64,000 nt of DNA from an uncultured Mediterraneibacter sp. (GTDB lineage Bacteria > Bacillota > Clostridia > Lachnospirales > Lachnospiraceae), in contig NZ_CALWFZ010000008.1 in NCBI RefSeq assembly GCF_944377805.1, forward strand, positions 28,183-92,182, given 5' to 3'. The translations under genes were made by a program, and so were the position numbers. The notes beneath the pieces were generated by a model. That model saw nothing but the letters and a program-made list of their open reading frames with translations, was not told the origin of the DNA and did not search any database. This document shows positions 13,793-54,606 of the stretch, in pieces. How positions within the stretch are numbered: position 1 is the stretch's first letter; every line of letters begins with the position of its first letter.

Positions 13793-13880
13793 CGGAAGTG
13801 CCAAAAGGCACATTCCGGGATTGTAAGCGGGCTCCAAAGTCCCGGGCACTTCCGGCTTTGGCTCGTCGCCGTCGCAAAAA
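13793..13880 (+). repeat. dispersed 88-bp repeat, copy A
   Basis: The element begins CGGAAGTGCC and ends GTCGCAAAAA. It is colinear without gaps with copy B (54519-54606) and copy C (52114-52027, minus). The first 25 bases can fold as GGAAGTGCC / GGCACATTCC, and the consensus second half as GCCARAGTC / GACTTTGGC. It lies in the 3' UTR of the Csp-like gene, and its A-tract runs into the terminator at 13876-13918. Confidence 0.85.
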
Positions 13881-13918
13881 TTCCCCGGCCGCCGTTTTCG
13901 GCTGCCGGGGAATTTTTA
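13876..13918. terminator. bidirectional intrinsic terminator between the Csp-like gene and the clpX paralogue
   Basis: A strong GC-rich hairpin with arms AAAATTCCCCGGC and GCCGGGGAATTTTT. It has A-tract and T-tract on the two sides, so it can stop both convergent genes. Confidence 0.85.
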
Positions 13919-13952
13919 TCCGTGTCATATAGATTCCGCGCGTTATTTCTGT

Positions 13953-15431
13953 CTATCCGAGTCTTGGCACGTCCTGGCCTCTCAGGTGAATAACAGGCCC
14001 TCCTGTGCCTTCTATATACTCTCTTGTGATGACCACTTCTCCGATACTGTCATCTTTTGGAATCTCATACATAATGTCAAGCATGAATTCCTCGATAATC
14101 GCCCTCAGAGCACGCGCTCCGGTATCCTTTTTCAAAGCCTTCTCCGCAATCGCCTCAAGAGCTCCGTCGTCAAACTCAAGTTTCACTTCGTCTAATGCGA
14201 GCAGCTTCTGATACTGCTTTAATATGGCGTTTCTCGGCTCTTTTAATATCTTGACCATCATATCTTTGTCCAGAGGCTTCAGACTGAAGATTACTGGAAG
14301 GCGGCCCAGAAACTCGGGGATCATGCCGAACTTTCTCAGATCCTCCACCGTTACTCTCGAAAGGAGGTCTCTGTCTTTGTCAAATTTGTCTTTCAGTTCG
14401 GAATTAAATCCCATAGAAGTCTTTTTCTGTAGTCTTTCTTTGATAATCTCTTCCAGATCCGGAAAAGCGCCTCCGCAGATAAAAAGGATATTCTTTGTAT
14501 TTACCGTAGTCAGAGGAACCATCGCATTCTTGCTGTTGGCGCCCACCGGCACCTCCACCTCGCTGCCCTCCAGGAGTTTGAGCATTCCCTGCTGTACGGA
14601 CTCTCCGCTGACGTCTCTCTGACTAGAATTATGCTTCTTGGCGATCTTGTCGATCTCATCGATAAAAATAATGCCCTGCTCTGCTTTATCCACGTCATTG
14701 TCTGCCGCGGCCAGAAGCTTTGATACCACGCTCTCAATATCGTCGCCTATGTATCCCGCCTCCGTAAGCGATGTGGCATCTGTAATCGCAAGCGGCACGT
14801 CAAGAAGCCTTGCCAGTGTCTTGACAAGATAAGTCTTTCCGCTTCCCGTAGGGCCGATCATCAGCATGTTGGATTTCTCGATCTCGATGTCGTCCATTGT
14901 ATCTGTTGCCACGCGCTTATAGTGGTTATACACTGCCACTGACATAGCTTTTTTTGCGTATTCCTGACCAACCACATATTCGTCCAGCCTTGCTTTTATC
15001 TTATGAGGCGCGGGAATATCCTTTATATTGAGCTGGCGGAATTCCCTGGGTTTTTCCTTCTTTTTCTTAATCTTCCGGGGCTGGGGCTGCATATTCTCCA
15101 GATCCGACATATTAAGAAACTGAACCCCCGGCATGTTCATAAGACGGTTCAGATCCACAGAGCCGTTTGTCATCGCGTCAAAACTTCTCTGCATACAGTC
15201 CTGGCACACAGTAATGTTGTTGGGAAGATCGATCATCTTACCTGTTACGCTCTCAGGGCGGTGACAGATAAAGCAGATCTTCTCATAGCTGCTGTCATCC
15301 TCGTCGTCTTTCGTCTTTTCTTCTGTCGAGACGACTTCCTGCCTTTTTTCCTTCTCCGGATTTTCATTCTGCCCGCCGTTACTTTTTTCTTTATCGTCCT
15401 CATCCACTAAGATGAAATCCTGGTCTGACAT
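13953..15431 (-). CDS. clpX: ClpX-type AAA+ unfoldase, long paralogue
   Basis: A 492-residue ClpX family ATPase. An acidic N-terminal extension of about 50 residues precedes a zinc-binding domain with Cys53, Cys56, Cys76 and Cys79. Walker A GPTGSGKT is at 193-200, pore loop AGYIGDD at 225-231 (GYVG in usual ClpX), Walker B IIFIDEID at 254-261, and the ClpP-contact loop region carries MGF instead of IGF. It is 60-70 residues longer than standard ClpX and is not beside clpP. It is therefore probably a second ClpX with its own substrates, still likely able to dock ClpP. AAGGGG precedes the ATG. Confidence 0.85.
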   Translation of the reverse strand: MSDQDFILVDEDDKEKSNGGQNENPEKEKRQEVVSTEEKTKDDEDDSSYEKICFICHRPESVTGKMIDLPNNITVCQDCMQRSFDAMTNGSVDLNRLMNMPGVQFLNMSDLENMQPQPRKIKKKKEKPREFRQLNIKDIPAPHKIKARLDEYVVGQEYAKKAMSVAVYNHYKRVATDTMDDIEIEKSNMLMIGPTGSGKTYLVKTLARLLDVPLAITDATSLTEAGYIGDDIESVVSKLLAAADNDVDKAEQGIIFIDEIDKIAKKHNSSQRDVSGESVQQGMLKLLEGSEVEVPVGANSKNAMVPLTTVNTKNILFICGGAFPDLEEIIKERLQKKTSMGFNSELKDKFDKDRDLLSRVTVEDLRKFGMIPEFLGRLPVIFSLKPLDKDMMVKILKEPRNAILKQYQKLLALDEVKLEFDDGALEAIAEKALKKDTGARALRAIIEEFMLDIMYEIPKDDSIGEVVITREYIEGTGGPVIHLRGQDVPRLG

Positions 15432-15484
15432 AAGTAATCCCCTTCTAAAACAGTTAAATTTGCCGGGATGTATCCGGCATTTTC

Positions 15485-15513
15485 ATTATAGTACACTTAG
15501 CGTCCGTGTACAA
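15485..15513 (-). promoter_or_regulatory. promoter of the clpX paralogue
   Basis: Minus-strand TTGTAC (15513-15508) and TATAAT (15490-15485) with a 17-bp spacer, about 55 bp upstream of the ATG. It is well separated from the PII-like gene, which ends at 15574. Confidence 0.7.
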
Positions 15514-15573
15514 ATGAACTTTTTCTAAATACCGGATACTTTCTCTCCTGGAATCCACTGTGCCGCTTCATCT

Positions 15574-16254
15574 CTACTGTACTTCCTGAAGCCTGAGTCC
15601 TGCAGTGTCTGTAACAGGAAGGGAGAAAACAACCGAACGCGCCCTGCTGTTTAAGCCGGCGTGATCCATAATGGATTTCATGATCGCGTTTTTCATCTCC
15701 GACTTCGTGACGATCATGATAAGCTCTTTCTCATCTGCAATAGAAACGCCTAAGAACTTCTCGGCTCTTTCAAGCCCTGTTCCTTTCGCGTGGATTACCG
15801 TTCCGCCGCCTGCTCCCTCTGCTCTGGCAGCATCCATCACTTCCTCGCTGTAACCGTGGTTTGCGACTACAATGATCAGTTCATAATTCGTATTCTTCAT
15901 GACACTCTCCTCTATCTTTTCGATCTTCTGTCCGGCGGTTAAAAATTCCAGTACCTTCTTGCCTCCCACACTGGAGAGCGGTATCAGAAACGCGATTCCC
16001 GTACCGGGAACGTCGATCTGCAACCTGTCTTCAAGTTCCCGTTTCACCTGTTCCCATGTCTCTTCTGACACAACGGTCAGCGTTACCATCTTCTCCGTCA
16101 CCTCAAGTCCGAAGTAGTCCAGCGTCTCGCTGGAGGCAGTTCCCTGCGCCAGCGTACACAGCGTGGAAGAAAGCCCGATTTCCTCATAACATGCCAGAAG
16201 TTTTTTTCCTACGGATCTCTTCGTGACAGTCATCAGCATATATATTTCACTCAT
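15574..16254 (-). CDS. tandem PII-like signalling protein
   Basis: A 226-residue soluble protein made of two PII-like (ferredoxin-fold) halves. The first (residues 1-95) starts MSEIYMLMTVTKRSVGKKLL. The second (about 120-215) starts TNYELIIVVANHGYSEEV and holds the glycine-rich GAGGGTVIHAKGTG loop that resembles the nucleotide-binding region of PII proteins. PII proteins sense ATP/ADP and metabolites and bind transporters. The gene follows the DUF1538 gene by 17 bp, with GGGAGG overlapping that gene's end, so the pair is surely co-expressed. The obvious hypothesis is that it gates the DUF1538 protein. Confidence 0.8.
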   Translation of the reverse strand: MSEIYMLMTVTKRSVGKKLLACYEEIGLSSTLCTLAQGTASSETLDYFGLEVTEKMVTLTVVSEETWEQVKRELEDRLQIDVPGTGIAFLIPLSSVGGKKVLEFLTAGQKIEKIEESVMKNTNYELIIVVANHGYSEEVMDAARAEGAGGGTVIHAKGTGLERAEKFLGVSIADEKELIMIVTKSEMKNAIMKSIMDHAGLNSRARSVVFSLPVTDTAGLRLQEVQ

Positions 16255-16271
16255 AATGTTATTCCTCCCGC

Positions 16272-17819
16272 TTAAAGTTCTATGATCTCATCGTCCGGAA
16301 GCTGGGCAAATACCGCTGCTGCTTTTTTCGCTTCCATCTTCTCGAGATGTCTGGAGTTGAGCTCGAACACGAGCCCGAGTATCTGTATCGTAATAAGAGG
16401 GGTCATGGCGACCATAGCCACTACTCCGAACGCGTCTGTAACAATGTTTCCTCCTACACTGGTGCATGCGCCGATAGCGAAAGGCAGAAGGAATGTCGCA
16501 GTCATCGGCCCCGATGCCACGCCGCCCGAGTCAAAGGCAATAGCGGTAAATATCTTCGGCACGAAGAACGACAGCGCGAGGGCGATGGCATATCCCGGTA
16601 TCACAAACCAGAAGATCGAGATGCCTGTGAGCACACGCACCATCGCAAGGCCGAGAGATGCCGCCACTCCGATGGAGAGACTTAAACTCATGGCTCCGGC
16701 GCTTATTGTTCCCGATGTAATATCTTCTACCTGTCGTGTCAGGACGAACACTGCGGGTTCGGCGCGCACGATAAAATATCCGATGATCATTCCGATAGGG
16801 ATAATGACCCATCTATATGGGTTATCGGCAAGCACCTGTCCGAGATAATTTCCCGCCGGCATGAATCCCACATTGACTCCCGTGAGAAAAAGGAAGAGCC
16901 CCGCGTAAGTATAGACCATACCGACTGCGATTCTGATAAGCATTCTCCGCTGCACCCGTCTGAATACGATCTGGAAAATAATAAAGAATACAATAATCGG
17001 AAGAAGAGATACTGCCATCTCTTTCATATATTCGGGCAGTTCCCCGGCAAACAGGTGCCATAGTTCCACCGAATCATTTATATCAGGAATGCTCTCCGGC
17101 ACATATTCAGCGCTTTCCGGGCGATAGATCAGGCTCAGCACGAGCACGGAGAGGATCGGCCCCACAGACGAGAGCGCCACAAGTCCGAAACTGTCATCCT
17201 CTGCCCGTTCGTCGCTTCGGATGGCAGAGATACCGATACCAAACGCCATGATAAAAGGCACTGTCATAGGTCCTGTTGTCACACCGCCCGAATCAAAAGC
17301 CACCGCGACAAAGTCATCCGGCGCCAGAAAGGCCAGACCGAATACGATGATGTAGAGCACGATCAGCATATGTGCCAGCGAAATGTTATACAGCATACGG
17401 AGCAGAGATGTTACAAGAAAGATCCCAACACCGAACGCCACGGACAGCACGAGCACTATATTGGGCACAGCAGGCACCTGTTCTGCCAGCACCTGTAAAT
17501 CCGGCTCCGATATAGTCACAATAAATCCGAGGATAAATGTCAGAAATACCATCAGCCACAGTTTCTTTGTCTGCGTCATGGAAGTTCCCACATTCTCTCC
17601 TATGGGCGTCATCGCCATCTCAGCTCCCAGCGTAAAGAACATCATTCCGGCAATCAGAAGCACTGCCCCGAGAAGGAATGCCAGAAGGATTCCCGGCTCT
17701 ACCGGAGCGATTGTAAAGCACAAAATAAGGACAATCGCGAGAATCGGAAGCACTGCCTTTAAAGTTTCATATAGTTTTTCCAGTAATTTTTCTTTTAATT
17801 TTGTCGTTCTTAAATTCAC
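16272..17819 (-). CDS. DUF1538 membrane protein, two-repeat transporter-like
   Basis: A 515-residue integral membrane protein with about 12-14 hydrophobic segments arranged as two homologous halves. AFDSGGVTTGPMT (174-186) recurs as AFDSGGVASGPMT (428-440), and SEPDLQVLAEQV (104-115) recurs as AEPAVFVLTRQV (353-364). DUF1538 proteins are transporter-like; from memory, one two-gene DUF1538 pair was reported to exchange cations for protons, which I cannot verify here. In this genome the two halves are fused and paired with a PII-like protein. The GTG start has AGGCAGG upstream. ligA ends 23 bp upstream. Confidence 0.85.
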   Translation of the reverse strand: MNLRTTKLKEKLLEKLYETLKAVLPILAIVLILCFTIAPVEPGILLAFLLGAVLLIAGMMFFTLGAEMAMTPIGENVGTSMTQTKKLWLMVFLTFILGFIVTISEPDLQVLAEQVPAVPNIVLVLSVAFGVGIFLVTSLLRMLYNISLAHMLIVLYIIVFGLAFLAPDDFVAVAFDSGGVTTGPMTVPFIMAFGIGISAIRSDERAEDDSFGLVALSSVGPILSVLVLSLIYRPESAEYVPESIPDINDSVELWHLFAGELPEYMKEMAVSLLPIIVFFIIFQIVFRRVQRRMLIRIAVGMVYTYAGLFLFLTGVNVGFMPAGNYLGQVLADNPYRWVIIPIGMIIGYFIVRAEPAVFVLTRQVEDITSGTISAGAMSLSLSIGVAASLGLAMVRVLTGISIFWFVIPGYAIALALSFFVPKIFTAIAFDSGGVASGPMTATFLLPFAIGACTSVGGNIVTDAFGVVAMVAMTPLITIQILGLVFELNSRHLEKMEAKKAAAVFAQLPDDEIIEL

Positions 17820-17842
17820 ACATTACCTGCCTTTCTTTTCTA

Positions 17843-19801
17843 TTATCTGTTCAACATATTTAAAAACTCTTCTTCCGAGATAATAGGAATCCCCAGTTCT
17901 CTCGCTTTTCTGTTTTTAGAAGAAGTGGAATCTATGTCATTGTTGATAAGATAACTTGTCTTCGATGTTACGCTTCCTGTCACTTTCCCTCCTCTCTTCT
18001 CAATCTCTTCTTTGATTTCTGCCCGGTTTGCAAAATGATGCATGCTGCCGGTAATCACAAAATTCACTCCTTCAAACTTTCTGGCATCTTCCGACTCTTT
18101 CTCCCGGGGAATCTCTACCTCCTTAAGCAGTCTCTTAAACAGATCTCTGTGTTCCTCCTCCGCAAAATACGAGGCAAATGTTCCGGCAATCACACCTCCC
18201 ACTCCGGAGATCTCACTTAGTTCCTCCTCATCTGCCTTCAATATACGCTCCGGATCATTCTCCAGAGCCCGGCAGATCACTTTTGCGTTGGCAATCCCGA
18301 TATTCGGTATGCCAAGGCTGTATACCAGCCGCGGCAGCGTCGTGACTCTTGCGCTCTCAATGCTTTTCTGGAGATTGTCATAGGACTTCTCTCCGAATCC
18401 CTCCATATTCCTGATCTCGTCCGCATAACGGTCAAGGTGAAAGAGATCCGTAAAGTCTCTGACATATCCGTTGGCAATGAACTTCTCCAGCGTCGCCTCG
18501 GAAAGTCCTTCAATATTCATGGCGTCCCGGCTTACGAAAAGCGTAAACGACTTCACATGCCTGGCCTGACATCCAGGGTTGGTGCAATAGAGAGTTTTGG
18601 TCTCATTCTCCATCGAGATCTTCGTCGGACCGCCGCACACCGGACATTCCTTCGGGATGTCCCTTACCCCGCTTCTTGTCAGGTTCTCAGCGATCTGGGG
18701 AATGATCATATTTGCCTTGTATACGGTAATCGTATCTCCCACGCCCAGTTCCAGTTCCTCCATAATGCTGATATTGTGGACACTGGCTCTGCTCACTGTT
18801 GTCCCCTCAAGGTCCACCGGATCGAAGATGGCCACCGGGTTGATCAGACCGGTTCTGGACGGACTCCACTCGATCTTTCGCAGAGTGGTCTCCCGGATCT
18901 CGTCCGCCCACTTAAAAGCAAATGAATCACGGGGAAATTTCGCTGTTGCTCCAAGAGAATGTCCATATTCGATGTCGTCGTAGACAAGCACCAGACCGTC
19001 TGAGGGCACCTCGTTGTCTTTAATATGCCGCGCGAACCATGCTACTTCCTCATCGACCGTATCCGCTGTGACCGGATGATTCTCCACTACGTCAAATCCC
19101 TGACCGGAGAGCCACTGCATCTGGTACAACCGGGAGTTTTTAAAGTCCACGCCATCGGCACGAACAAGGGTGAACGCATAGAATCTCACATTTCTTTTCG
19201 CCGTGATCTCATTGTTGAGCTGCCGCACCGAACCGCTGCACAGATTTCTCGGATTTTTATATTTTGCGTCCGCATCCCCGATCTCCTCGTTGATGTTCTC
19301 AAAGTCTTTATAGGAGATCACCGCCTCACCGCGCAGTACCAGTTCCCCTTGATAGGGAATCGACAGGGGAATATTTGTAAACACCCTGGCATTATTCGTT
19401 ACCACCTCGCCGACCTCGCCGTTTCCCCGGGTCACCGCTTTTTCAAGTGTGCCGCCCCGGTAGGTGAGGACAATCGTAAGTCCGTCCAGCTTCCATGAGA
19501 TCATGGCTTTCTGATCTCCCAGAAATTCTTTCAGGCGCTCTGTATCCTTCGTCTTATCGAGCGAGAGCATCGGACTTTCGTGCCGTTCTTTGGGCAGTTC
19601 GCTCAGAACTTCGTATCCTACATTGACAGTAGGGCTTGAGGCCAGCGTTGTATTAAGCTCACGCTCCAGCTCCTGAAGTTCATCGTAGAGACGATCATAT
19701 TCATAATTGCTCATGATCTCGGTATCTTCCTGCTCATAGGCACGTCTTGCCCGGTTCAGAAGTTCCACCAGATCACGCATCCGTTTCATCTTATCTTCCA
19801 T
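17843..19801 (-). CDS. ligA: NAD-dependent DNA ligase, divergent in the nucleotidyltransferase motifs
   Basis: A 652-residue LigA with the standard order: Ia domain, adenylation domain, OB fold, zinc finger (CPVCGG...LYCTNPGCQA), helix-hairpin-helix repeats, and BRCT domain (KFEGVNFVITGSM to the end). The adenylated Lys is K104 in SWKLDG. Two positions differ from the usual consensus: the Glu two residues before the Lys is Ser102, and the RGDG..GEDVT block reads RGNGEVGEVVT (125-135). It joins nicked DNA using NAD. The divergence suggests a paralogous or specialised ligase, though the gene is intact. Confidence 0.9.
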   Translation of the reverse strand: MEDKMKRMRDLVELLNRARRAYEQEDTEIMSNYEYDRLYDELQELERELNTTLASSPTVNVGYEVLSELPKERHESPMLSLDKTKDTERLKEFLGDQKAMISWKLDGLTIVLTYRGGTLEKAVTRGNGEVGEVVTNNARVFTNIPLSIPYQGELVLRGEAVISYKDFENINEEIGDADAKYKNPRNLCSGSVRQLNNEITAKRNVRFYAFTLVRADGVDFKNSRLYQMQWLSGQGFDVVENHPVTADTVDEEVAWFARHIKDNEVPSDGLVLVYDDIEYGHSLGATAKFPRDSFAFKWADEIRETTLRKIEWSPSRTGLINPVAIFDPVDLEGTTVSRASVHNISIMEELELGVGDTITVYKANMIIPQIAENLTRSGVRDIPKECPVCGGPTKISMENETKTLYCTNPGCQARHVKSFTLFVSRDAMNIEGLSEATLEKFIANGYVRDFTDLFHLDRYADEIRNMEGFGEKSYDNLQKSIESARVTTLPRLVYSLGIPNIGIANAKVICRALENDPERILKADEEELSEISGVGGVIAGTFASYFAEEEHRDLFKRLLKEVEIPREKESEDARKFEGVNFVITGSMHHFANRAEIKEEIEKRGGKVTGSVTSKTSYLINNDIDSTSSKNRKARELGIPIISEEEFLNMLNR

Positions 19802-19848
19802 ATTTTGTCATTCTCCCTGTTCTGTGTCATTTCGGCCTGTCAGAAGAT

Positions 19849-21742: not shown

Positions 21743-21756
21743 TATCCGATCCCCGC

Positions 21757-23166: not shown

Positions 23167-23185
23167 TCTCTCTCCTTCACTCCGG

Positions 23186-24426: not shown

Positions 24427-24479
24427 ATATAGTATCAATCCTGTAATCAACTGTTTAAAAATGCCTGCAATACCCTTTC

Positions 24480-25118: not shown

Positions 25119-25134
25119 TCGATATACATCTTAT

Positions 25135-29586: not shown

Positions 29587-30699
29587 ATGGCAAGTTTATC
29601 ACTGGAAGGCATCCAGAAAATTTATCCGAACGGATTTCATGCAGTTAAAGATTTCAACCTCGACATTGAGGATAAAGAGTTCATCATCTTCGTAGGACCG
29701 TCCGGCTGTGGTAAGTCCACTACACTTCGTATGATCGCCGGTCTGGAAGACATCTCCGGCGGTACTCTCAAAATCGACGGAAAAGTAATGAACGACGTAG
29801 AGCCGAAGGACCGTGACATTGCAATGGTTTTCCAGAACTACGCCCTGTATCCGCACATGACTGTATATGATAATATGGCATTCGGTCTGAAACTCCGCAA
29901 GGTTCCGAAAGCCGAGATCGACAAGAAAGTCCGTGAAGCGGCAAGAATCCTTGATCTTGAAAAACTTCTTGACCGTAAGCCGAAGGCTCTCTCCGGTGGA
30001 CAAAGACAGCGTGTCGCTATGGGACGTGCGATCGTCCGTAACCCGAAGGTATTCCTTATGGACGAGCCTCTCTCCAACCTGGACGCAAAACTGAGAGTCC
30101 AGATGCGTATTGAGATTTCCAAGCTTCATGAGAATCTGGGCGCTACAATCATCTATGTAACGCACGATCAGACAGAGGCTATGACACTTGGTACAAGAAT
30201 TGTTGTTATGAAAGACGGAGTTGTTCAGCAGGTGGATACACCTCAGAATCTCTACAATACACCTTGCAATCTTTTTGTTGCGGGATTCATCGGATCTCCG
30301 CAGATGAACTTCATGGACGCCCTGTGTACAGTCAAAGGCGACGACGTTACACTTACTGTCGGCAAACATGTGCTGAAAGTTCCGGCTTCCAAGAAAAAAG
30401 CGCTCATCGACGGAGGATATGACGGAAAGACAGTTGTACTCGGAATCCGCCCTGAGGATGTGCATGATTCAGAGGCGTTTATCAGCAACTCACCGGACAG
30501 TATCATCGAGTCCACGATCAAAGTTTACGAGCTGCTTGGAGCCGAAGTGTTCCTGTACTTTGACGTAGAGGGCACTCAGATGACAGCACGGGTAAATCCG
30601 CGTACAACACTGAGAACAGGTGACAAAGCTGTATTCGCGCTCGACATGGAAAAGATCCACGTATTCGACAAAGAGACGGAGTTGACGATTACAAACTAA
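29587..30699 (+). CDS. ugpC: sugar ABC transporter ATP-binding protein, shared ATPase type
   Basis: A 370-residue ATPase of the UgpC/MsmK/MalK group. Walker A is GPSGCGKSTT near residue 38, Q-loop MVFQNYALYPHM, signature LSGGQRQRVAMGRAI, Walker B KVFLMDEPLSNLDAKLR and switch THDQTEAM. The C-terminal TOBE/OB regulatory domain begins near 240. No permease or binding protein genes are next to it, which fits a general ATPase serving several carbohydrate importers, as MsmK does in streptococci. AAGGAGG precedes the ATG, and a strong terminator follows. Confidence 0.93.
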   Translation: MASLSLEGIQKIYPNGFHAVKDFNLDIEDKEFIIFVGPSGCGKSTTLRMIAGLEDISGGTLKIDGKVMNDVEPKDRDIAMVFQNYALYPHMTVYDNMAFGLKLRKVPKAEIDKKVREAARILDLEKLLDRKPKALSGGQRQRVAMGRAIVRNPKVFLMDEPLSNLDAKLRVQMRIEISKLHENLGATIIYVTHDQTEAMTLGTRIVVMKDGVVQQVDTPQNLYNTPCNLFVAGFIGSPQMNFMDALCTVKGDDVTLTVGKHVLKVPASKKKALIDGGYDGKTVVLGIRPEDVHDSEAFISNSPDSIIESTIKVYELLGAEVFLYFDVEGTQMTARVNPRTTLRTGDKAVFALDMEKIHVFDKETELTITN

Positions 30700-30797
30700 T
30701 GCTTTAAAATTGGGATAGCAGCTGAGCGGCAGCAAAGATGCTATTCAACGCTGGTCACCTGACCGGCAGGCTTACCGCTTATCTATCATAATATGAG

Positions 30798-30832
30798 GGG
30801 CTGCACTTTCTGAATAAGTGCAGCCCTTTTAT
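30798..30832 (+). terminator. intrinsic terminator downstream of ugpC
   Basis: A perfect 11-bp stem GGGCTGCACTT / AAGTGCAGCCC followed by TTTTATT, about 100 bp after the ugpC stop. The roughly 100 bases between stop and hairpin hold no gene I can support. Confidence 0.9.
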
Positions 30833-30840
30833 TCGAGATA

Positions 30841-30918
30841 GCGCCAAGCCAAAATCCGGGCTTGCCCGAGACCTTTGCGGCCGCTTACAACCCCGGAATA
30901 TTCCTTCTGGAACTTCCG
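30841..30918 (-). repeat. dispersed 88-bp repeat, copy D (degenerate, shortened)
   Basis: On the minus strand the copy starts CGGAAGTTCC and keeps the TTCCGGGGTTGTAAGCGG core and the TTTTGGCTTG end. It lacks the last 10 bases and has a one-base shift. It lies between the ugpC terminator and the PucR-like gene, opposite in orientation to both. Its distal end abuts the ugpC terminator. Confidence 0.7.
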
Positions 30919-30945
30919 AAGAAAGCTCTAACGACGGAGAAAAAA

Positions 30946-31851
30946 ATGGATCAGAGACAAGAACTGGAAAAAGCGCTGTGTGAGCTCAAACGGATTACAG
31001 GCATTGCCCTTGAAATCCCCGACGACACAGAAGAAGATATGGGACATGCCCTTTCTCAGATACGCTGTCTGTGTACGGCATATAAAGAAAAATATAACAA
31101 GACAGATTTTCTGAACGGGCTTATGACAGGCGGAATCCCCTCCTATGATATACAGGAACGCGCCTCCCGCCTTCATATCAATCCGGAAGAAGAACGGGTT
31201 CTGTTTCTTCTGGAGTCAAAAGACCTGGATGAAACAGTAAATGAAATACTGAAAAATCTGTTTCCCTCCCGGACAAAGACTTATCTCGTCCCGGTGACAG
31301 AACATACCCTCGCCGTTCTCCGCCCTGTCCGCGCGTCTGAGACGCCCGATGACGTCCGGCGCACCGCTCAGACAATGGTTGACACGCTGAACACAGAAGC
31401 TCTGATGAGAGTCCATCTCTCCTACAGCTGTGTCATAAACAGTCTCTCAGATCTCCAGGAGGCTTTTCGTGAGACGAGTCTGGCTCTGAAAGTCGGAAAG
31501 CTTTTCTATTCTGAACAGACCGTGTTTCCGTACAACGAACTGGGAATCGGACGCCTGATCTACCAGCTTCCGGCTTCCCTGTGCGAGAATTTTCTAAAGG
31601 AGATCTTCGGAGCTGATATTCCGAATTCATTTGACGAGGAACTTCTTGGAACAATCAACCGGTTCTTTCAGAATAACCTTAATATAGCCGAGACTTCCCG
31701 GCAACTCCATATGCACCGGAATACACTGATCTACCGCCTGGATCAGATCCAGAAAAAGACCGGTTTGGACGTCCGCCTCTTTGAAGATGCCATGACGTTC
31801 AAGATCGCCACTATGGTACTAAACTATTTACAAGCAGAAAGGAAACATTAG
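30946..31851 (+). CDS. PucR/CdaR-type helix-turn-helix regulator
   Basis: A 301-residue protein whose C-terminus is the PucR-type HTH: FFQNNLNIAETSRQLHMHRN followed by TLIYRLDQIQKKTGLDVR. The central region (about 80-230) resembles the GGDEF-like CdaR domain found before such HTHs. These proteins are transcription activators for sugar-diacid, purine or proline use; the ligand here is unknown. ATG 30946 has GGAG six bases upstream. The frame runs 28 codons further upstream, but those codons lie in repeat copy D and have no ribosome binding site. Confidence 0.85.
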   Translation: MDQRQELEKALCELKRITGIALEIPDDTEEDMGHALSQIRCLCTAYKEKYNKTDFLNGLMTGGIPSYDIQERASRLHINPEEERVLFLLESKDLDETVNEILKNLFPSRTKTYLVPVTEHTLAVLRPVRASETPDDVRRTAQTMVDTLNTEALMRVHLSYSCVINSLSDLQEAFRETSLALKVGKLFYSEQTVFPYNELGIGRLIYQLPASLCENFLKEIFGADIPNSFDEELLGTINRFFQNNLNIAETSRQLHMHRNTLIYRLDQIQKKTGLDVRLFEDAMTFKIATMVLNYLQAERKH

Positions 31852-41622: not shown

Positions 41623-41623
41623 C

Positions 41624-45371: not shown

Positions 45372-45374
45372 CAT

Positions 45375-46610: not shown

Positions 46611-46691
46611 GTCTCTTCTCCTGTCAATTGCCTTAATACTTTTCTGATCATAAATGAAATCATCTGACAGAAAACCGGCAGTACTTACGCA

Positions 46692-47255: not shown

Positions 47256-47258
47256 CTC

Positions 47259-49124
47259 TCATACTCCATTCACCGGATACTGCAGCATCCAGAACGAATT
47301 CAATATATTAATCAACATTACTACCATATCGGCGATAATCGCGTTCTGCATTGTCACAAAACCGAAAAATGCCATAATGATCAGCAGCACTTTCATCCCG
47401 ATCGCAAATATCATGTTTTGTCTGACCGAGCGAAGCGTTGCTCTGGCGATTCGCATTGCGCTTATGATCCTGGACGGCTCATCTTCCATCAGAATAATAT
47501 CTGCCGCTTCAAGAGCCGCATCCGCCCCCAGACCTCCCATAGCTATTCCAATATCTGCCCGGGACAGCACCGGAGCGTCGTTGATTCCGTCTCCGACGAA
47601 GGCAAGCTTCTCCCCTTCAAACTGGTTCTCCCGGAACTCCTGCAAAAGAGCCACTTTATTCTCAGGCATCAGCTCCGCGTATACGCTCTCGATATGTAAA
47701 CGGTGCGCCACTTCTTCCGCCGCCTGCTCATTATCGCCGGTGAACATCACAGTTCCCATATTCTTTCTGTGCATCCATCGAAACAGCTTATATGCGTCTT
47801 CCCTTATAACATCAGAGATCAGTATATATCCCGCATACGCTCCATCCACAGCTATATAGACAGCGGTTCCCGCATCGGTAACCGGCTCGTAAAAAATCCC
47901 CTGCCGGTTCATCATCCGCGTATTGCCGACATACACTTCTTTTCCGTCTATTCTGGCACGCACGCCATATCCCGGTTGTTCCTCTATATCTTCCACACGG
48001 GATCGGTCCGGTTTCTTTCCGTATTCCTTCTCCAGCGATATCGCGATCGGATGGTTCGAGTAGGATTCAGCCAGCGCCGCAATCTCCAGCAATTCATCTC
48101 TGTCCATATTGTGGGGCACGATTTCGCGCACATGAAACACACCCTCTGTCAATGTCCCGGTCTTGTCAAAAACAAATGTATCCACTTCCGTCAGTTCTTC
48201 AAGAAACGCGCTTCCCTTAATCAAAACCCCCTGTTTGGACGCGGCGCCGATACCTCCCAGAAAAGCCATAGGAATCGATACCATAAGCCCGCATGGGCAC
48301 GCCGCCACAAGGATAATCAGTCCGCGGTAGATCCACTCCGACCTTGCTTCTATGAAGATCATCGGCGGCAGGAGCACTGTCAGCAGGGCAATAAGAATTA
48401 CCAGCGGAGTATAGTATTTCGTAAATTTGTCTGCAAAATGCACGCTGTCCGACTTTTTCTCGTTGGCGCTTTCTACCAGCCGCATGATTTTCGCCGCCGT
48501 CGAATCATTATACAGCTTTACGACTTTCGCTTCCAGCACACTGTTTAAATTAATGCTTCCACTGTACAGGCGGTCTCCAATCTTTACAGATCTTGGTTCC
48601 GACTCTCCGGTCAGCGCTTTCATATCAACCGTGCCGTTCCCAAGCGTCACAACACAGTCCACAGGTATCTTTTCCCCGGGGCGCAGCACGATCACCTGAT
48701 TTTTTTCCAGTTTCTGAGGAGGAACGATCTTCTCGGTATTTCCGACTTTCAGATTTGCGTATTCCGGACGAATATCAATAAATTTGGAGATCGACTTCTT
48801 CGTTCTGCCAAGAGACAGGTCTTCTACAAATTTACCGATCTGATAGAACAGCATTGCTGCTACCGCTTCTTTGTGCCGTCCGACAAAAAAAGCCCCCAAA
48901 GTAGCGATGATCATCAGTAAGTCCTCATCTATGAACTGGCGCTTTAGAACTTTTTTCATCTGTTCCCAGTATACGGACGCAGCCAGCGCAGCATAGGCTG
49001 TCAGAAATAATATCGTTTCAGCGTATTCCTGGACAGGCCAGTTATAAGTTATCCCCCATGCAATAATATAGAGCAGCGCCCCTGCTCCGATCTCAATACC
49101 TCTTTTTTTCGCTTCCCCAGTCAT
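47259..49124 (-). CDS. P1B-type heavy-metal-translocating ATPase (CadA/ZntA-like)
   Basis: A 621-residue metal pump: about eight membrane segments, the metal-site motif ACPCGLMVSIP in the sixth, TGES actuator motif, phosphorylation site DKTGTLT, SNHPIA in the nucleotide-binding domain, and GDGINDAPVL. CPC with this context suggests Zn/Cd/Pb-type (P1B-2) or Co-type export. There is no N-terminal HMA metal-binding domain. The residue after CPC is Gly rather than the usual Ala, so specificity is uncertain. A TPR lipoprotein follows. Confidence 0.92.
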   Translation of the reverse strand: MTGEAKKRGIEIGAGALLYIIAWGITYNWPVQEYAETILFLTAYAALAASVYWEQMKKVLKRQFIDEDLLMIIATLGAFFVGRHKEAVAAMLFYQIGKFVEDLSLGRTKKSISKFIDIRPEYANLKVGNTEKIVPPQKLEKNQVIVLRPGEKIPVDCVVTLGNGTVDMKALTGESEPRSVKIGDRLYSGSINLNSVLEAKVVKLYNDSTAAKIMRLVESANEKKSDSVHFADKFTKYYTPLVILIALLTVLLPPMIFIEARSEWIYRGLIILVAACPCGLMVSIPMAFLGGIGAASKQGVLIKGSAFLEELTEVDTFVFDKTGTLTEGVFHVREIVPHNMDRDELLEIAALAESYSNHPIAISLEKEYGKKPDRSRVEDIEEQPGYGVRARIDGKEVYVGNTRMMNRQGIFYEPVTDAGTAVYIAVDGAYAGYILISDVIREDAYKLFRWMHRKNMGTVMFTGDNEQAAEEVAHRLHIESVYAELMPENKVALLQEFRENQFEGEKLAFVGDGINDAPVLSRADIGIAMGGLGADAALEAADIILMEDEPSRIISAMRIARATLRSVRQNMIFAIGMKVLLIIMAFFGFVTMQNAIIADMVVMLINILNSFWMLQYPVNGV

Positions 49125-49332
49125 ATTTTCTTTCCTTGACTTTCATAAACTTTTTTCCTTATACAGTATAGCGAAAATACAGGAAAGCATCAATAACTTT
49201 TATTCTTCATACTGTAATATTAAGGAAATTTTACAAATATTTATGTGATAGTAGTTCCAAATGTGGAGGCAGATGTGGTACAATAAGACGTAATTTGTCA
49301 AAAACTATAATAATTTGAACAGGGGGTGGATT

Positions 49333-50496
49333 ATGGTAAAAATGAAATGCAGTCTGTGTGGAGGCAAGCTGAACAACAATCGATGTACATTCTGCGGGCT
49401 GGACAACTCAATCTACGACCGTGATCATTCTTACCGCAGCGCTTTTGCGCAGCAAAGGCGACTGGAGAAGAGAGCCGAGCGCACTCATATGAAACCGGCA
49501 TCTCACGCCGGTTCGTACGCTCAGCCTCAACAGCTTCGATCTCCCGCTCCAAAACCGGTTCAGGCAGAGCCGCTGTCAGCGGGTACACATGCCGCAAATT
49601 ACAACACAGTATCTCAAAGATCCAGAAAGCGTACGACACCGCCGCCTGCCTCTTCCGGCTCGAAGAAATTCGGATGCGCGGTATGGATCGTCCTGATGAT
49701 TATCATACTGTTCACATTTGTACCGGCACTTGGCCGCATCGGCTCATCAGTCATCAGTCAGATAAAATCCTCCATATCAGATATGGGATCAGATGTCGGG
49801 ATTTCTTCTGACGATACTTCAGCTGATTTTGACTATGACCCATATGCTTTCGTAAACAGAGAGATTCCCGGGAGCGGAGAGACATATGATACCGTTCTTG
49901 GCAGCGGAGTATACAAAGTCGGCGTACATATTCCGGAGGGGGTTTATTCTCTAAAGCTTGTCGAGGGGTCGGGCAGCGTCGAATTTGAAGAAGAAGAAAA
50001 CAGCATCTATGACTATGCTTATCTCGGAACGGAAGAAGAGTATGATCAGGTTGTGGAGCGAAGCGATTTCCGGCTCTACAATGGCGGAGAACTGACCATA
50101 GGCAGCGGAGTGCTTGTAAATCTCAGCACTTCAAACGCGCAGCCTCTCACTCAGGAACCTTCCGCAAATCCGTTAACCGAGTCGATATCGCTTCCGGTTG
50201 GCAGCTATACTTCCGGGACAACTATTCCGGAAGGCATCTATGACATCTCTGTTGAGGAAGAGACAGATGACGCTTACGGCTACGCAAGCATCGCAATGAA
50301 ATATCCGAACGGGAATTCACATTATCTCTGGGCTGACGGTCTTCAATACGCTGTGTCATCCGGCGGAATTACAACTGCCGGAGTGAAAAATGTGCTCATT
50401 CCGTCCGGTACGCAGATCGAAGTTGAGTACGGAAATATCGTTCTGACTCCGAGCGAGGAATATTATGAGGCTGACTATTCAGATTATTATCAATAG
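49333..50496 (+). CDS. zinc-ribbon, single-span membrane protein with duplicated beta-rich extracellular domain
   Basis: A 387-residue protein not assigned to a named family by me. The N-terminus has a CxxC-x8-CxxC ribbon (CSLCGGKLNNNRCTFCG), then a basic disordered stretch, one membrane span (about 112-135), an acidic linker, and two similar extracellular units. The first has SGVYKVGVHIPEGVYSL and the second VGSYTSGTTIPEGIYDIS. ATG 49333 follows AGGGGGTGG. It lies 24 bp upstream of the nfeD-SPFH pair and may be in the same operon. The 208 bp upstream hold no gene I can support. Confidence 0.65.
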   Translation: MVKMKCSLCGGKLNNNRCTFCGLDNSIYDRDHSYRSAFAQQRRLEKRAERTHMKPASHAGSYAQPQQLRSPAPKPVQAEPLSAGTHAANYNTVSQRSRKRTTPPPASSGSKKFGCAVWIVLMIIILFTFVPALGRIGSSVISQIKSSISDMGSDVGISSDDTSADFDYDPYAFVNREIPGSGETYDTVLGSGVYKVGVHIPEGVYSLKLVEGSGSVEFEEEENSIYDYAYLGTEEEYDQVVERSDFRLYNGGELTIGSGVLVNLSTSNAQPLTQEPSANPLTESISLPVGSYTSGTTIPEGIYDISVEEETDDAYGYASIAMKYPNGNSHYLWADGLQYAVSSGGITTAGVKNVLIPSGTQIEVEYGNIVLTPSEEYYEADYSDYYQ

Positions 50497-50520
50497 CGCC
50501 GGAAAGAAAGGAGAGATTGC

Positions 50521-50997
50521 ATGACGGCAGATATACTGACACTTTCCCCTGAACTCATGAATCTGATCTGGCTTGGGATTTTTATTGTGCTGATTATTAT
50601 TGAGCTGTTTACCGTCGGGCTTACCACAATCTGGTTTGCGTTGGGCTCACTTGCGGCTCTGCTTGTCAACGTCCTTGGCGGCGGCCTTGCCTTACAGATT
50701 ATTGTTTTTCTGATCGTGTCCATTGTCCTGCTGGTTATTACCCGCCCGTGGGCACTGAAATATGTAAACAAAAAACGGATACGGACAAATTATGAGAGCG
50801 AACTGGGAAAGATCATCCTGATCACCGAGAGAGTCGACAACATGAAACAGACAGGAAAAAGCATTGTCAACGGCCAGGAATGGACCGTCCGTTCCAAAGA
50901 CGACAGGGATATACTGGAAACAGGAGACAAAGCGAAAGTTGTTGATGTTTCAGGGGTAAAACTAATCGTAGAAAAGTATAAGGAGGACTCCGTATGA
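50521..50997 (+). CDS. NfeD family membrane protein
   Basis: A 158-residue protein with two to three membrane segments (residues 15-75) and a C-terminal OB-fold domain (KIILITERVDNMKQTGKSIV...WTVRSKDD). NfeD proteins are partners of SPFH/stomatin proteins in membrane microdomains. GAAAGGAG precedes the ATG. Its end overlaps the SPFH gene start by ATGA. Confidence 0.92.
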   Translation: MTADILTLSPELMNLIWLGIFIVLIIIELFTVGLTTIWFALGSLAALLVNVLGGGLALQIIVFLIVSIVLLVITRPWALKYVNKKRIRTNYESELGKIILITERVDNMKQTGKSIVNGQEWTVRSKDDRDILETGDKAKVVDVSGVKLIVEKYKEDSV

Positions 50998-51956
50998 ATT
51001 CAATTATCGGACTTGGAGGCATTTTCATTTTCATCATTTTGATTATCGCTGTACTTATTTTGATCTCATGTGTAAAGATCGTACATCAGGCTCAGGCAGT
51101 CGTTATCGAGCGTCTGGGCGCTTACCTGACAACCTGGCACACCGGACTGCACTTCAAGCTGCCGATTATCGATCGTGTAGCGCGCCGGATCGACTTAAAA
51201 GAGCAGGTAGTGGACTTCCCGCCTCAGCCGGTGATCACCGAGGATAACGTTACAATGCAGATCGATACCGTCATCTTCTACCAGATCACAGATCCGAAGC
51301 TGTTCTGCTACGGTGTGGCAAGCCCGATCATCGCGATCGAAAACCTGACTGCCACCACTCTGAGAAATATTATCGGTGATCTGGAACTTGACCAGACTCT
51401 GACATCGCGAGAGACAATCAACACGAAGATGCGCGCTGAGCTGGACCAGGCTACAGATCCCTGGGGAATCAAGGTAAACCGTGTAGAACTTAAGAATATC
51501 ATACCGCCGACAGCCATCCGGGATGCGATGGAGAAACAGATGAAAGCAGAGCGTGAAAGACGTGAAGCCATCCTCCGCGCGGAAGGTGAGAAGAAATCCA
51601 CCGTCCTCGTAGCAGAAGGCCAGAAAGAATCTGTAATTCTGGAAGCAGAGGCGGCAAAGCAGGCAGCTATCTTACGAGCAGAAGCTGAAAAAGAGAAAAT
51701 GATCCGGGAGGCGGAAGGTGAAGCGGAAGCCATTATGAAGGTTCAGCAGGCAACTGCCGATGGTCTCAGATTCCTGAAAGAAGCAGGCGCTGATGAGTCC
51801 GTTCTCACTTTGAGAAGCCTTGAGGCGTTTGAAAAAGCGGCGGATGGCAAAGCTACCAAGATCATTATCCCTTCGGAGATCCAGGGAATAGCAGGTCTCG
51901 TCAAATCCATCACCGAAGTGGCGGCGGACGGAGATGACAAATCAGCCGCACAATAG
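50994..51956 (+). CDS. SPFH/stomatin-family protein (slipin, QmcA-like)
   Basis: A 320-residue protein with an N-terminal membrane segment (5-27), an SPFH domain (VVIERLGAYLTTWHTGLHFKLPIID...), a long Ala/Glu-rich coiled coil (about 185-255: EAILRAEGEKKS, EAEAAKQAAIL) and a C-terminal IIIPSEI block. It forms ring-like membrane scaffolds and is translationally coupled to nfeD. Confidence 0.94.
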   Translation: MNSIIGLGGIFIFIILIIAVLILISCVKIVHQAQAVVIERLGAYLTTWHTGLHFKLPIIDRVARRIDLKEQVVDFPPQPVITEDNVTMQIDTVIFYQITDPKLFCYGVASPIIAIENLTATTLRNIIGDLELDQTLTSRETINTKMRAELDQATDPWGIKVNRVELKNIIPPTAIRDAMEKQMKAERERREAILRAEGEKKSTVLVAEGQKESVILEAEAAKQAAILRAEAEKEKMIREAEGEAEAIMKVQQATADGLRFLKEAGADESVLTLRSLEAFEKAADGKATKIIIPSEIQGIAGLVKSITEVAADGDDKSAAQ

Positions 51957-51988
51957 ACAGACGCAGTCTTCTCAGACATATAAAAATA

Positions 51989-52025
51989 ACCGGAACGGGA
52001 GTTTTTCTCCTGTTCCGGTATTTTT
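51989..52025. terminator. bidirectional terminator after the SPFH gene
   Basis: Hairpin ACCGGAACGGGAG / CTCCTGTTCCGGT with flanking A and T tracts. Repeat copy C abuts it from the right. Confidence 0.88.
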
Positions 52026-52026
52026 C

Positions 52027-52114
52027 TTTTTGCGACGGCTATGAGCCAAAGTCCGGCCCTGACAAGCCCCTGGCGACCGTTTGCAATCCCGGAATATGTC
52101 TTTTGGCACTTCCT
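52027..52114 (-). repeat. dispersed 88-bp repeat, copy C
   Basis: On the minus strand the copy reads from AGGAAGTGCC (52114) to CGTCGCAAAAA (52027), colinear with copies A and B without gaps. It lies directly downstream of the relQ-type gene stop (52132) in the same orientation, and its A-tract leads into the terminator at 52025-51989. Confidence 0.85.
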
Positions 52115-52131
52115 GCGATTCATAGGCACTT

Positions 52132-52878
52132 TTAACCGTTTGTTCCGTCAGCCTGAAGTTTTGACTGTTCTTTTCGTGTTCCTATCACATGCTCCAGCAC
52201 TTCGTTCATATTATCCTGATTCTCCTGGTGAAGAATACATTCCTGTATCGCTTCATTCAGCGAAAGCATCTTGTCATCCAGTTCCGAGACCATCTTCGCG
52301 CACTCTCTTAAGTCACGGCTGATATAGTCCGGAGCATTCCCCTCAAATTTATAATAGATCTTATGCTCCAGACTCGCCCAGAAATCCATCGCGATCGTAC
52401 GAATCTGGATCTCGACTTTTGTATCCACCACGCTGTCGGAGAGAAAGATCGGAACTGACACAAGCATATGATAGCTCTTATAACCGCTCTCTTTTGGATT
52501 CTTTATGTAATCTTTGATTGAGAGCACTTTAAGATCGCTCTGATTCCCTATCATCTCTGCCAGTCGGTAAATATCTGATGTAAAAGAACAGATCAGACGC
52601 ACACCCGCAATGTCATTGATGTATCTGACCATATTCTCAATCGAAGTCTCATATCCGTAGCGCTTTAGCTTCTTGACAATACTTTCCGGCGTCTTAATCC
52701 TTGTCTTGATATGCTCGATCGGATTATACTGGTGAACATGCTGAAACTCATCGTTTAAAATCTCCAGCTTTGTGCCTACCTCTTTCAATGCCGCATTATA
52801 GAGAAATATAACTGTCTTCCAACTGTCGACATCCTCGTAGCTCCTCAGCGCAGCTTCAACCTGTTGTTTGCCTTTCAT
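52132..52878 (-). CDS. GTP pyrophosphokinase family protein (RelQ-type small alarmone synthetase)
   Basis: A 248-residue stand-alone (p)ppGpp synthetase: RIKTPESIVKKL, INDIAGVRLICSF, SGYKSYHMLVSVP and EIQIRTIAMDFWASLEHKIYYK are the synthetase motifs, with no HD, TGS or ACT domain. It makes ppGpp/pppGpp from ATP and GDP/GTP in stress. ATG 52878 has GGGGG nine bases upstream. A candidate alarmone hydrolase is encoded 8 kb away at 43849. Confidence 0.92.
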   Translation of the reverse strand: MKGKQQVEAALRSYEDVDSWKTVIFLYNAALKEVGTKLEILNDEFQHVHQYNPIEHIKTRIKTPESIVKKLKRYGYETSIENMVRYINDIAGVRLICSFTSDIYRLAEMIGNQSDLKVLSIKDYIKNPKESGYKSYHMLVSVPIFLSDSVVDTKVEIQIRTIAMDFWASLEHKIYYKFEGNAPDYISRDLRECAKMVSELDDKMLSLNEAIQECILHQENQDNMNEVLEHVIGTRKEQSKLQADGTNG

Positions 52879-52979
52879 CGCGGACATCCCCCATTGGTTA
52901 TTTTTCTATCAATTCAGTATACCATAGTTTGTGTTTTATGTTAACCGAGTTCGCTCTTTTTTTATTATCTTTTTATAGG

Positions 52980-54032
52980 TTATTCCAGTTTCATGTCTCC
53001 AAAACGAATCCATTTCTTCCTGCGCATAAACTCAGATACTCCAAGCGTCAGAGCTGCTGGCAGCACAAACTGTATCAGCAGAATCTTCACAAATACAATC
53101 ATCTGGGATTCTGTCTGCGTCATCACCTGCCATGTCATCAGAGGACCTACAAGGCCGGCCGTACCCATGCCGGATCCCGTGGCATTGTTCGTCATGTGGA
53201 ATACCATTGTTCCGACGGGGCCCAGTACCGCGCTGGAAATAATGGCGGGAATCCATATCTGCGGGTGCCGTACGATATTGGGCATCTGAAGCATGGATGT
53301 GCCGATTCCCTGAGACAACAGACCGCCGATTTTATTCTCCCGAAAACTGGCCACCGCAAATCCAATCATATTACAACAGCATCCTACCGTGGCCGCGCCT
53401 GCCGCCAGCCCTGACAGGTTGAGGATTACCCCGAGCGCCGCGGAACTGATCGGAAGGGTCAGTATCATCCCCATAAGGACGGAAACAACAATCCCCATGA
53501 TCAGAGGCTGCTGCTCGGTTCCCCAATTGATCAGAGATCCCAGCCAGGACATAAATCCGGAGATCGGAGGCCCTGTCAGAAGACCGGCCGCCGAACCAAG
53601 GCCGATACTGACAAAGGGCGTCAGAATAATATCCAGTTTCGTCCTGCCCGATACAAGCATCCCGATCTCAGCAGCTATATATGCAGCGATAAAGGCACCC
53701 AGAGGCTCGCCCGGTCCGGACAGGACAAGACTTCCGTCCACAAGGAGAGCTCCCGAACTAAAATCTCCCGCAAACGCCCCGACGATTCCCGATACTGCCG
53801 CGGATACCACCACAAGATGCCCCGCCTCCAGTTTTCTGGCGACTCCGGCTCCAATCCCGGCTCCGGTTAGTCCTGCCGCTACTTTTCCCAGCGTATAGAT
53901 CATATCTCCCATACCGCCGCCTAAATATATCCCGATCTGTTGTATGATCGTGCCGATGATCAGAGTGGCAAAAAGCCCCTGCGCCATTCCGGTCAGTCCG
54001 TCTATAAATATTCTGTCAAGAAATTTCTTCAT
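52980..54032 (-). CDS. PTS IIC-like membrane protein (PTS_EIIC_2 type)
   Basis: A 350-residue membrane protein, glycine-rich, about nine to ten spans, with LDIILTPFVSIGLGSAAGLLTGPPISGFM, QQPLIMGIVVSVLMGMILTLPIS and HMTNNATGSGMGTAGLVGP. This matches a stand-alone IIC-like family without IIA or IIB domains. Substrate and PTS dependence are unknown; no IIA/IIB gene is near. Confidence 0.82.
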   Translation of the reverse strand: MKKFLDRIFIDGLTGMAQGLFATLIIGTIIQQIGIYLGGGMGDMIYTLGKVAAGLTGAGIGAGVARKLEAGHLVVVSAAVSGIVGAFAGDFSSGALLVDGSLVLSGPGEPLGAFIAAYIAAEIGMLVSGRTKLDIILTPFVSIGLGSAAGLLTGPPISGFMSWLGSLINWGTEQQPLIMGIVVSVLMGMILTLPISSAALGVILNLSGLAAGAATVGCCCNMIGFAVASFRENKIGGLLSQGIGTSMLQMPNIVRHPQIWIPAIISSAVLGPVGTMVFHMTNNATGSGMGTAGLVGPLMTWQVMTQTESQMIVFVKILLIQFVLPAALTLGVSEFMRRKKWIRFGDMKLE

Positions 54033-54236
54033 ACATATCTCCCTTTTCGTCTGCCGGCTTCTCTGCCCCGCTTCGTTTCATTCTTTTTCTAATATACCAA
54101 AAAGCCACGGCCCGCACAACATTGAAAGCCTGATTTTATCAATGACTTTTTCTGCGGACTGTGCTAAAATAGCACCTGTGATACCATTATACGGCATATA
54201 CGGTTATCACCGCGGCCGAAGAAAGGAGCCTTTATT

Positions 54237-54500
54237 ATGTTCCGTTTATGGGGAAAAGAATTCAAGGATAACAGAATGCTGCGAGACACCGTCGTCTGCG
54301 ATGAGACGGATGACACACGCACACATAAAATATTTAACGCCTTAGATCAGATCTGTTATGAGTTTGATCTGAGCAAGCCGATCTGGCTCGATGTTACAAT
54401 CAACGAATTCAAGCGTCACGCAAAAACCCGGTTTTACCAGGACAGCTTCGTTGATTCCATCGATTTTGATTATCTGGAAATCCAGGTAATCGAAGAGTAA
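54237..54500 (+). CDS. small conserved hypothetical protein
   Basis: An 87-residue soluble acidic protein (MFRLWGKEFKDNRMLRDTVVCD...WLDVTINEFKRHAKTRF). I do not recognise a characterised family. AAAGGAG precedes the ATG by eight bases, which supports a real gene. Its 3' UTR contains repeat copy B and a terminator. Confidence 0.65.
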   Translation: MFRLWGKEFKDNRMLRDTVVCDETDDTRTHKIFNALDQICYEFDLSKPIWLDVTINEFKRHAKTRFYQDSFVDSIDFDYLEIQVIEE

Positions 54501-54518
54501 CATATTTCATCAAAGCAT

Positions 54519-54606
54519 CGGAAGTGCCAAAGGGCACGTTTCAGGATTGTAAACGGTCGCCAGAATCTCGGCAAACCCGGACTTTGGCTCGTCGTCGTCA
54601 CAAAAA
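54519..54606 (+). repeat. dispersed 88-bp repeat, copy B
   Basis: Starts CGGAAGTGCC and ends CGTCACAAAAA, gap-free over 88 bases against copies A and C. It lies 19 bp after the stop of the small hypothetical gene, in the same orientation, and its A-tract starts the next terminator hairpin. Confidence 0.85.

Follow-up and report, generated by a model that had tools for sequence, protein, structure and literature searches.

REP/RAYT and IS200/IS605 elements carry hairpins beside the cleavage site, pair the tetranucleotides at the hairpin feet and leave no target duplication. Short interspersed nuclear elements (SINEs) of eukaryotes are short, structured, non-coding units with a conserved 3' part, a variable 5' part and an A-rich 3' junction. 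Both were compared with a dispersed element of about 95 nt that is present in four copies in 64,000 nucleotides of an uncultured Mediterraneibacter sp. (NCBI RefSeq assembly GCF_944377805.1, contig NZ_CALWFZ010000008.1, positions 28,183 to 92,182 of the forward strand; this whole stretch is called the window). By analogy, hairpins at the ends, pairing of foot tetranucleotides and lack of duplication appear to be shared with REP/RAYT and IS200/IS605, whereas several element-rich genomes had no Y1/RAYT match and no element lay beside the RAYT-like genes tested. The short structured unit, conserved right part, variable left part and A-rich junction resemble a SINE, yet the element has no target duplication and no clear 5' truncation bias, and no partner reverse transcriptase was identified. 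Of the features that define miniature inverted-repeat transposable elements (MITEs), which derive from DNA transposons, terminal inverted repeats are absent and target-site duplication was not seen in six readable sites.

The nearest kind of described repeat is SPRITE, BOX and RUP of Streptococcus pneumoniae, which in the excerpt of PMC3049150 used here are, like the present element, short, gene-less, structured and interspersed. According to the same excerpt, SPRITE is enriched near gene 3' ends, its target duplication could not be judged because empty sites were lacking, and it is itself terminator-like, having one long stem, a T-rich tract and AAAA/TTTT ends. By contrast, the present element consists of two hairpins next to a host terminator, is inserted in a preferred orientation and has empty sites that can be read. 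Inverted repeats and duplications, both absent here, are found in BOX and RUP (PMC3049150, excerpt). In its choice of target the element comes closest to group IIC introns, which insert after terminator stems or other stem-loops (PMC7923331, excerpt); the element likewise lies after a terminator stem-loop in a T-rich site. Those introns are ribozymes with a reverse transcriptase, whereas the element has no recognised ribozyme core and no gene. It fails the defining tests of MITEs, REP/RAYT elements and introns. It is very probably a mobile element that targets terminators. The best overall explanation, which we consider probable, is a gene-less, non-autonomous Lachnospiraceae element that acts as a folded single strand and inserts at terminator T-tracts. 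An earlier note on this DNA, made from the letters alone, had proposed either a non-autonomous element inserting next to terminators or a 3' untranslated region (UTR) element or processed small RNA; the former is supported by near-identical copies, by empty sites in relatives and by one end tied to T-tracts.

The four copies named in that note exist and are related, and the family lies far beyond chance. In the genome of the window (G000, 2.28 Mb), own-genome BLAST gave 40 matches and a search with a covariance model (R1, built from 30 copies) gave 55 copies at E<=0.001. The right-end 27-mer had 3 matches in the window against 0.00 expected. Covariance-model matches were found in 17 of 41 genomes (G000 and 40 relatives), all of the same genus. 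Within the genus, 17 of 25 members (G000 counted) carry 1 to 55 copies and 8 carry none; the 16 genomes of other families in the set had no match. The core pattern of hairpin 2, with <=2 mismatches allowed, was present in 20 of 397 genomes sampled across Lachnospiraceae, with up to 54 matches per genome, and the reversed control pattern in none of the same 397. Given these scattered carriers, the repeat is a Lachnospiraceae family with a patchy distribution. Named carriers (80 of 95 matching stretches listed) were Mediterraneibacter glycyrrhizinilyticus, [Ruminococcus] torques, [Ruminococcus] faecis, Candidatus Mediterraneibacter pullistercoris and colneyensis, Mordavella massiliensis, Blautia glucerasea, Coprococcus catus, Oliverpabstia intestinalis and Fusicatenibacter saccharivorans. 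For the Oliverpabstia type (query 10-95), 23 matches were listed. M. glycyrrhizinilyticus had 40 matches that were 97-100% identical to the query (40 scored of 63 candidates), and near-identical copies were also found in C. catus; judged by this identity, the copies in both species show recent spread. Viral contigs gave no match to one exact pattern, and plasmids none to the subfamily II query. Over the element, no Rfam 15 family reached its curated score: the window was scanned with gathering scores and eight element loci with relaxed ones, and in the loci everything returned, a tRNA excepted, fell below the curated score. A weak match to Gut-1 RNA in a Fusicatenibacter locus lay elsewhere, outside the element, and was set aside. 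No description of the repeat was found among the matches listed in the open-licence PMC literature, as represented by titles and the openings of abstracts.

Two adjacent hairpins stand on the element strand, their feet forming the boundaries of the element, and no gene lies within it. Its two ends, AATCACCGG and GTCACAAAAA, form the feet of separate hairpins and do not constitute inverted repeats. Hairpin 1 starts at the first bases and in subfamily I reads AATC(A)CCGGAAGTGCC-AAAA-GGCAC(A)TTCCGG-GATT. The true start is about 6 nt to the left of that first proposed, at AAT(C), whose foot can pair with GATT; the object itself had been correctly recognised. The right boundary coincides with the end of hairpin 2. 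The conserved core of this hairpin, GCCAAGGTC / GACTTTGGC, includes one fixed G.U; TC/TCG forms its internal loop and CAAG sits at the apex. This core is kept in subfamily II (Blautia, C. catus, Oliverpabstia, faecis and others), where hairpin 1 has a different sequence (AACTATGAGAAAC..GTTTCTCAAGTT), and with the further hairpin 1 variants of Fusicatenibacter, Oliverpabstia and a third type in G000 (L331). Despite these differences, hairpin 1 folds at the left end in 10 of 11 representatives; the foot of the third-type copy is weaker. Internally deleted forms are about 63 nt long and have lost the sequence between short direct repeats, both ends being kept. Another form, of 144 nt, has three hairpins: in C. 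catus a third hairpin lies within the internal loop in 10 of 11 inspected copies (nine of 144 nt, one of 140 nt). Split C. catus matches had been candidates for an autonomous long version; those inspected were the third hairpin or fragments, with no gene, in a search that was incomplete. The three to six bases directly before the A-tract vary between species and are largely constant within several of them, and in some folds they fall in an internal loop of the hairpin 2 foot.

Structural covariation, which the earlier note had put forward as a check, holds. In 90 distinct copies from relatives, 17 of 28 pairs were changed on both sides (shuffle mean 6.0, reached by 0 of 500 shuffles), in an alignment that was fitted to the tested structure, a bias in its favour. 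Slid controls gave 6-15 pairs and 10-22 cells, against 37 cells for the true structure. The foot tetranucleotides covary, AATC with GATT and AACT with AGTT. One apical pair is G-C in 40, T-A in 33, A-T in 4, T-G in 1 and unpaired in 4 of 82 named copies, and is C-G in G072.

The right end of most copies meets an A-tract and then immediately a stem; the other strand reads stem-TTTTT, a terminator pointing into the element. In most copies the A-rich end is the T-tract of a terminator owned by the far-side gene, which is transcribed towards the element. Transcription of the right-hand gene is directed at the element in 47 of 55 G000 copies and in 185 of 219 of a wider set (150/176 in subfamily I, 35/43 in subfamily II). 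The wider set comprised 233 unique copies with an intact right end from all sources, 219 of them with a right-hand gene called; they are partly orthologous, so not all are independent. The left-hand gene in G000 points away from the element in 40 of 56 copies and towards it in 16, and 35 of the 56 lie between two genes that are both on the opposite strand, that is, upstream of the next gene. Folding energy was measured over 45 nt beyond the A-tract. Right flanks folded at <= -9 kcal/mol in 82% (subfamily I, n=188) and 80% (subfamily II, n=45) of copies, against 17% and 20% for left flanks and 28% and 16% for single-base-shuffled right flanks. The first paired base of the terminator stem was at a median of 4 nt (I) and 3 nt (II) from the element end, scored where the fold was <= -8 kcal/mol (143 of 155 and 46 of 49 anchorable copies). 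After the stem, a T-run on the element strand was present in only 13/143 (I) and 12/46 (II). An A-run of three or more was absent at the anchored end in 11/155 (I) and 17/49 (II). The excess next to terminators and the non-random orientation that the earlier note had named as conditions for its idea are thus present, the orientation in the opposite sense to the one it proposed. A hairpin does adjoin the A-rich end in four of four window copies, but the A-tract belongs, as a T-tract, to a terminator that points into the element.

The four copies in the window and the terminators that adjoin them are as follows.
13787..13875, + strand: copy A, with hairpin 1 and hairpin 2 (G000:C8:41969-42067); its first AA overlaps the TAA of the subtilase gene.
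13876..13917, no single strand: A5 tract and bidirectional terminator beside copy A, facing the ClpX-like gene 13953-15431 (-), which runs towards copy A.
30834..30924, - strand: copy B, with degenerate ends (G000:C8:59007-59106), 21 nt upstream of the PucR-type regulator gene 30946-31851 (+).
30793..30833, + strand: terminator of the ABC-transporter gene 29587-30699 (+); its T-rich end touches copy B.
52032..52120, - strand: copy C; the orthologous site in G023 (L208) is empty.
51981..52031, + strand: terminator of the SPFH/Band 7 gene 50994-51956 (+); its T-tract, 52027-52031, touches copy C.
54513..54601, + strand: copy D; the orthologous site in G002 (L210) is empty.
54602..54640, - strand: terminator downstream of the tRNA gene 54649-54719 (-); its T-tract (A5 on the + strand, 54602-54606) touches copy D.

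Each window copy is directly followed by an A-tract. A same-strand gene stops just before copies A (subtilase), C (RelA/SpoT-domain protein) and D (an 87-aa open reading frame), because these copies are located between convergent genes; the gene facing copy D from the other side is the tRNA. Copies A, B and C had been said to follow such a stop, which is correct for A and C, and for D as well, and incorrect for B. Read on the + strand, copy B is preceded by the terminator of the ABC-transporter gene and followed by the start of the PucR-type regulator (30946). A clear T-run on the element strand is present only in copies A and C.

Loci with and without the element were compared for target-site duplication. 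In six readable pairs of filled and empty sites the A/T tract was conserved within one base and no duplication was seen, a duplication of a single A inside an A-tract being indistinguishable. In duplicated regions of Lachnospiraceae S22M_St_6, A7 in the empty site corresponds to A2-element-A5 in the filled one. Copy C reads CTATG-element-AAAAAGAAAAATACCGG, against CTCAG-AAAACAAAAATACCGG in the empty site of G023. The same holds for copy D against G002, for L010 against G020 and for L063 against G045: the empty site already has the A-tract, its length within one base, and no duplication was seen. Since the A-tracts pre-exist at empty sites, insertion occurred at or near the outer end of the T-tract, which is where transcripts of the facing gene should end. 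At 15 site pairs the matching sites carry an element in both species, with variant letters particular to each, and the same terminators were therefore used repeatedly or copies exchanged sequence. Species-typical letters before the A-tract were seen even at such matching sites (for example G000:C24:1171-1270 and L150; G000:C22:1581-1680 and L172).

The proposed mechanism is as follows. The element would work as a folded single strand, with hairpin 2 as the part recognised by a protein and hairpin 1 as a structural cap. The working strand is probably the element strand: G.U pairs are fixed on it, and it is therefore favoured as the better folder. Insertion would start at the T-tract of an intrinsic terminator; the insertions observed lie at or near its outer end and show no target duplication. 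As a rule the A-side end stands against the T-tract, the terminator strand then reading stem-TTTTT-reverse complement of the element. Element RNA might be copied by a reverse transcriptase from a 3' end at the T-tract; this RNA route is weakly preferred, about even with a DNA route. Its more specific form, a bacterial SINE, is unlikely. There the A-sided 3' end of a two- or three-hairpin RNA would be reverse transcribed from a 3' end at the end of the T-tract, provided by a nick in the exposed coding strand or by the U-tract of the terminated transcript, and transcription termination would choose the insertion site.

Intrinsic terminators are a natural seam between bacterial genes. Landing at transcript ends, in a preferred orientation and without a scar, would allow dozens of copies while seldom breaking genes, and spread of this kind would therefore reshape intergenic space. 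Filled and empty sites occur naturally as pairs, and M. glycyrrhizinilyticus, as a recently active host, is a place to look for the enzyme; the question whether short RNA-borne parasites akin to SINEs exist in bacteria also becomes testable.

Several results weigh against a terminator-targeting element of this kind or against its RNA route. About a fifth of copies have no strong right-flank hairpin. A second pair in S22M_St_6 (A4 to A2-element-A3) is an insertion in an A4 tract without an evident terminator hairpin, the left flank matching over 31 nt only. Covariation within G000 alone was weak (7 pairs, 85/500 shuffles) because the copies there are decaying. Decay within copies was strand-neutral, with 60 G-U and 60 A-C changes at G-C pairs. 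No mobilising enzyme was found in searches for the Y1 transposase and the PF00078 reverse transcriptase. PF00078 was absent from G012 (41 copies), G022 (17) and G002 (10); it matched 10 of 10 genomes of another set. Reverse transcriptases differ in recently active genomes, being retron-like in G047 and only a fragment in G048, and no type was common to carriers. Target-primed reverse transcription from the T-tract would predict loss of the left side. In five genomes, with each sequence inspected, 17 left-lost and 8 right-lost fragments were counted (p=0.108), and 7 of the 17 were left members of tandem pairs. Left-lost fragments numbered 5 in G000, 3 in G048, 4 in G054, 3 in G052 and 2 in C. 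catus; right-lost fragments numbered 3, 1, 0, 1 and 3 in the same order. The count excluded matches 1-50 of G048 and 1-79 of G054, whose right ends are kept. Not scored as left-lost were five matches whose hairpin 1 is changed, short or unclear (two in G052, two in G048, one in G054), a G052 match in which hairpin 1 is complete but different, and an internal deletion in G000. An excess of left loss obtained from BLAST ranges (24 against 10, p=0.024) was discarded after this inspection, and the odds of the RNA route were lowered by the recount. As the left-loss prediction was not established, no reverse transcriptase type is common to carriers and Y1 transposases are missing from several, the RNA route is favoured weakly; the terminator-targeting mobile element stands firm.

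The strongest rival, possible though somewhat doubtful, is mobility as DNA only. Such elements would work like IS200/IS605, REP/RAYT or IS91-Helitron elements: an HUH/Y1-type or rolling-circle transposase would move one strand, recognise the hairpins and insert at a T-rich target on the terminator strand. The guide and cleavage tetranucleotides of such transposons pair with each other, and the covarying foot tetranucleotides (AATC/GATT, AACT/AGTT) are as expected of them. Hairpins at both ends, a T-rich insertion point, and lack of both target duplication and terminal inverted repeats also agree. On the other hand, Y1_Tnp, the only family searched among HUH nucleases, had no match in G000, G047 or G054, all element-rich, and one of 30 Y1/RAYT loci contains the element, the IS200-like gene about 200 nt away from it appearing independent. 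On these two counts RAYT/IS200 was not supported as the mobiliser. Moreover, with its fixed G.U pairs the element strand folds better than the T-tract strand.

Selective retention as a functional cis element, either supplying a promoter or leader (TTGCCC-N18-TACAAT on the reverse strand) or insulating transcription, is improbable. The -10-like TACAAT is well preserved, the 15 matching pairs are occupied in two species, and the 35 copies in G000 that lie between the terminator side and the next gene start are often 20-70 nt upstream of it. Judged by eye, however, the -10/-35-like letters are about equally kept in convergent copies, where the promoter would be antisense, and TTGCCC-N18-TACAAT is not visibly better preserved upstream of genes; the promoter/leader idea was dropped. 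Selection for a function also sits poorly with the decay of copies, with several empty orthologous sites and with the 8 of 24 same-genus genomes that have no copies, some of them incomplete. Very improbable is the reading in which the local terminator ends a 3' UTR element, or a processed small RNA, derived from the same-strand gene upstream. Its geometry is true for copies A, C and D and for the 16 of 56 G000 copies with a same-strand left gene; the other 40 have no such upstream gene, the terminator serves the opposite-strand neighbour, and T-runs on the element strand are few. A shortened group IIC intron can be dismissed almost entirely: such introns insert just downstream of a terminator or another stem-loop (PMC7923331, excerpt), the same class of target, yet the element has about 95 nt and no gene, no Rfam intron matched in the window (gathering scores) or over the element in eight loci (relaxed scores), and a single plastid-intron match was at chance level.

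Two reverse transcriptase genes were seen in carriers. In M. glycyrrhizinilyticus (G047), L357:1333-2529 is a Retron Ec107-like reverse transcriptase by PADLOC; its C-terminal part presumably resembles ferredoxin (CxxCxxCxxxCP-type motif). In G000 (contig C42), L331:1021-3033 is a reverse transcriptase of the group II intron type, read in one frame with a permease-like stretch that precedes it. The divergent third-type copy (about L331:418-512) lies about 500 nt from it, a closeness taken as chance.

Some copies occur in unusual settings. Ten gut records labelled 'Bacteriophage sp.', all unannotated (among them MT835472.1 and MT835784.1), hold copies like subfamily II, with 46-100% of the element covered. 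In Oliverpabstia G052 (L425-L428), one element subfamily lies within a longer repeated unit, and the four loci inspected share flanks. Seven tandem pairs in G054 and G052 (L445, L446, L447, L429, L430, L434, L444) have an incomplete left member that abuts or nearly abuts the next copy. In L432 (G054:C105:21487), the 3' arm of hairpin 2 now complements the 5' arm, as though the latter had been its template. Solo copies of hairpin 1, forming a near-perfect palindrome, were seen in L112 (G000:C24:959-1013), L107 (C25:12501), L108 (C16:39690) and L376. The solo hairpin in C25 stands directly after a stop codon and is followed by TTTTCTT, and from this arrangement it may act as a terminator there.

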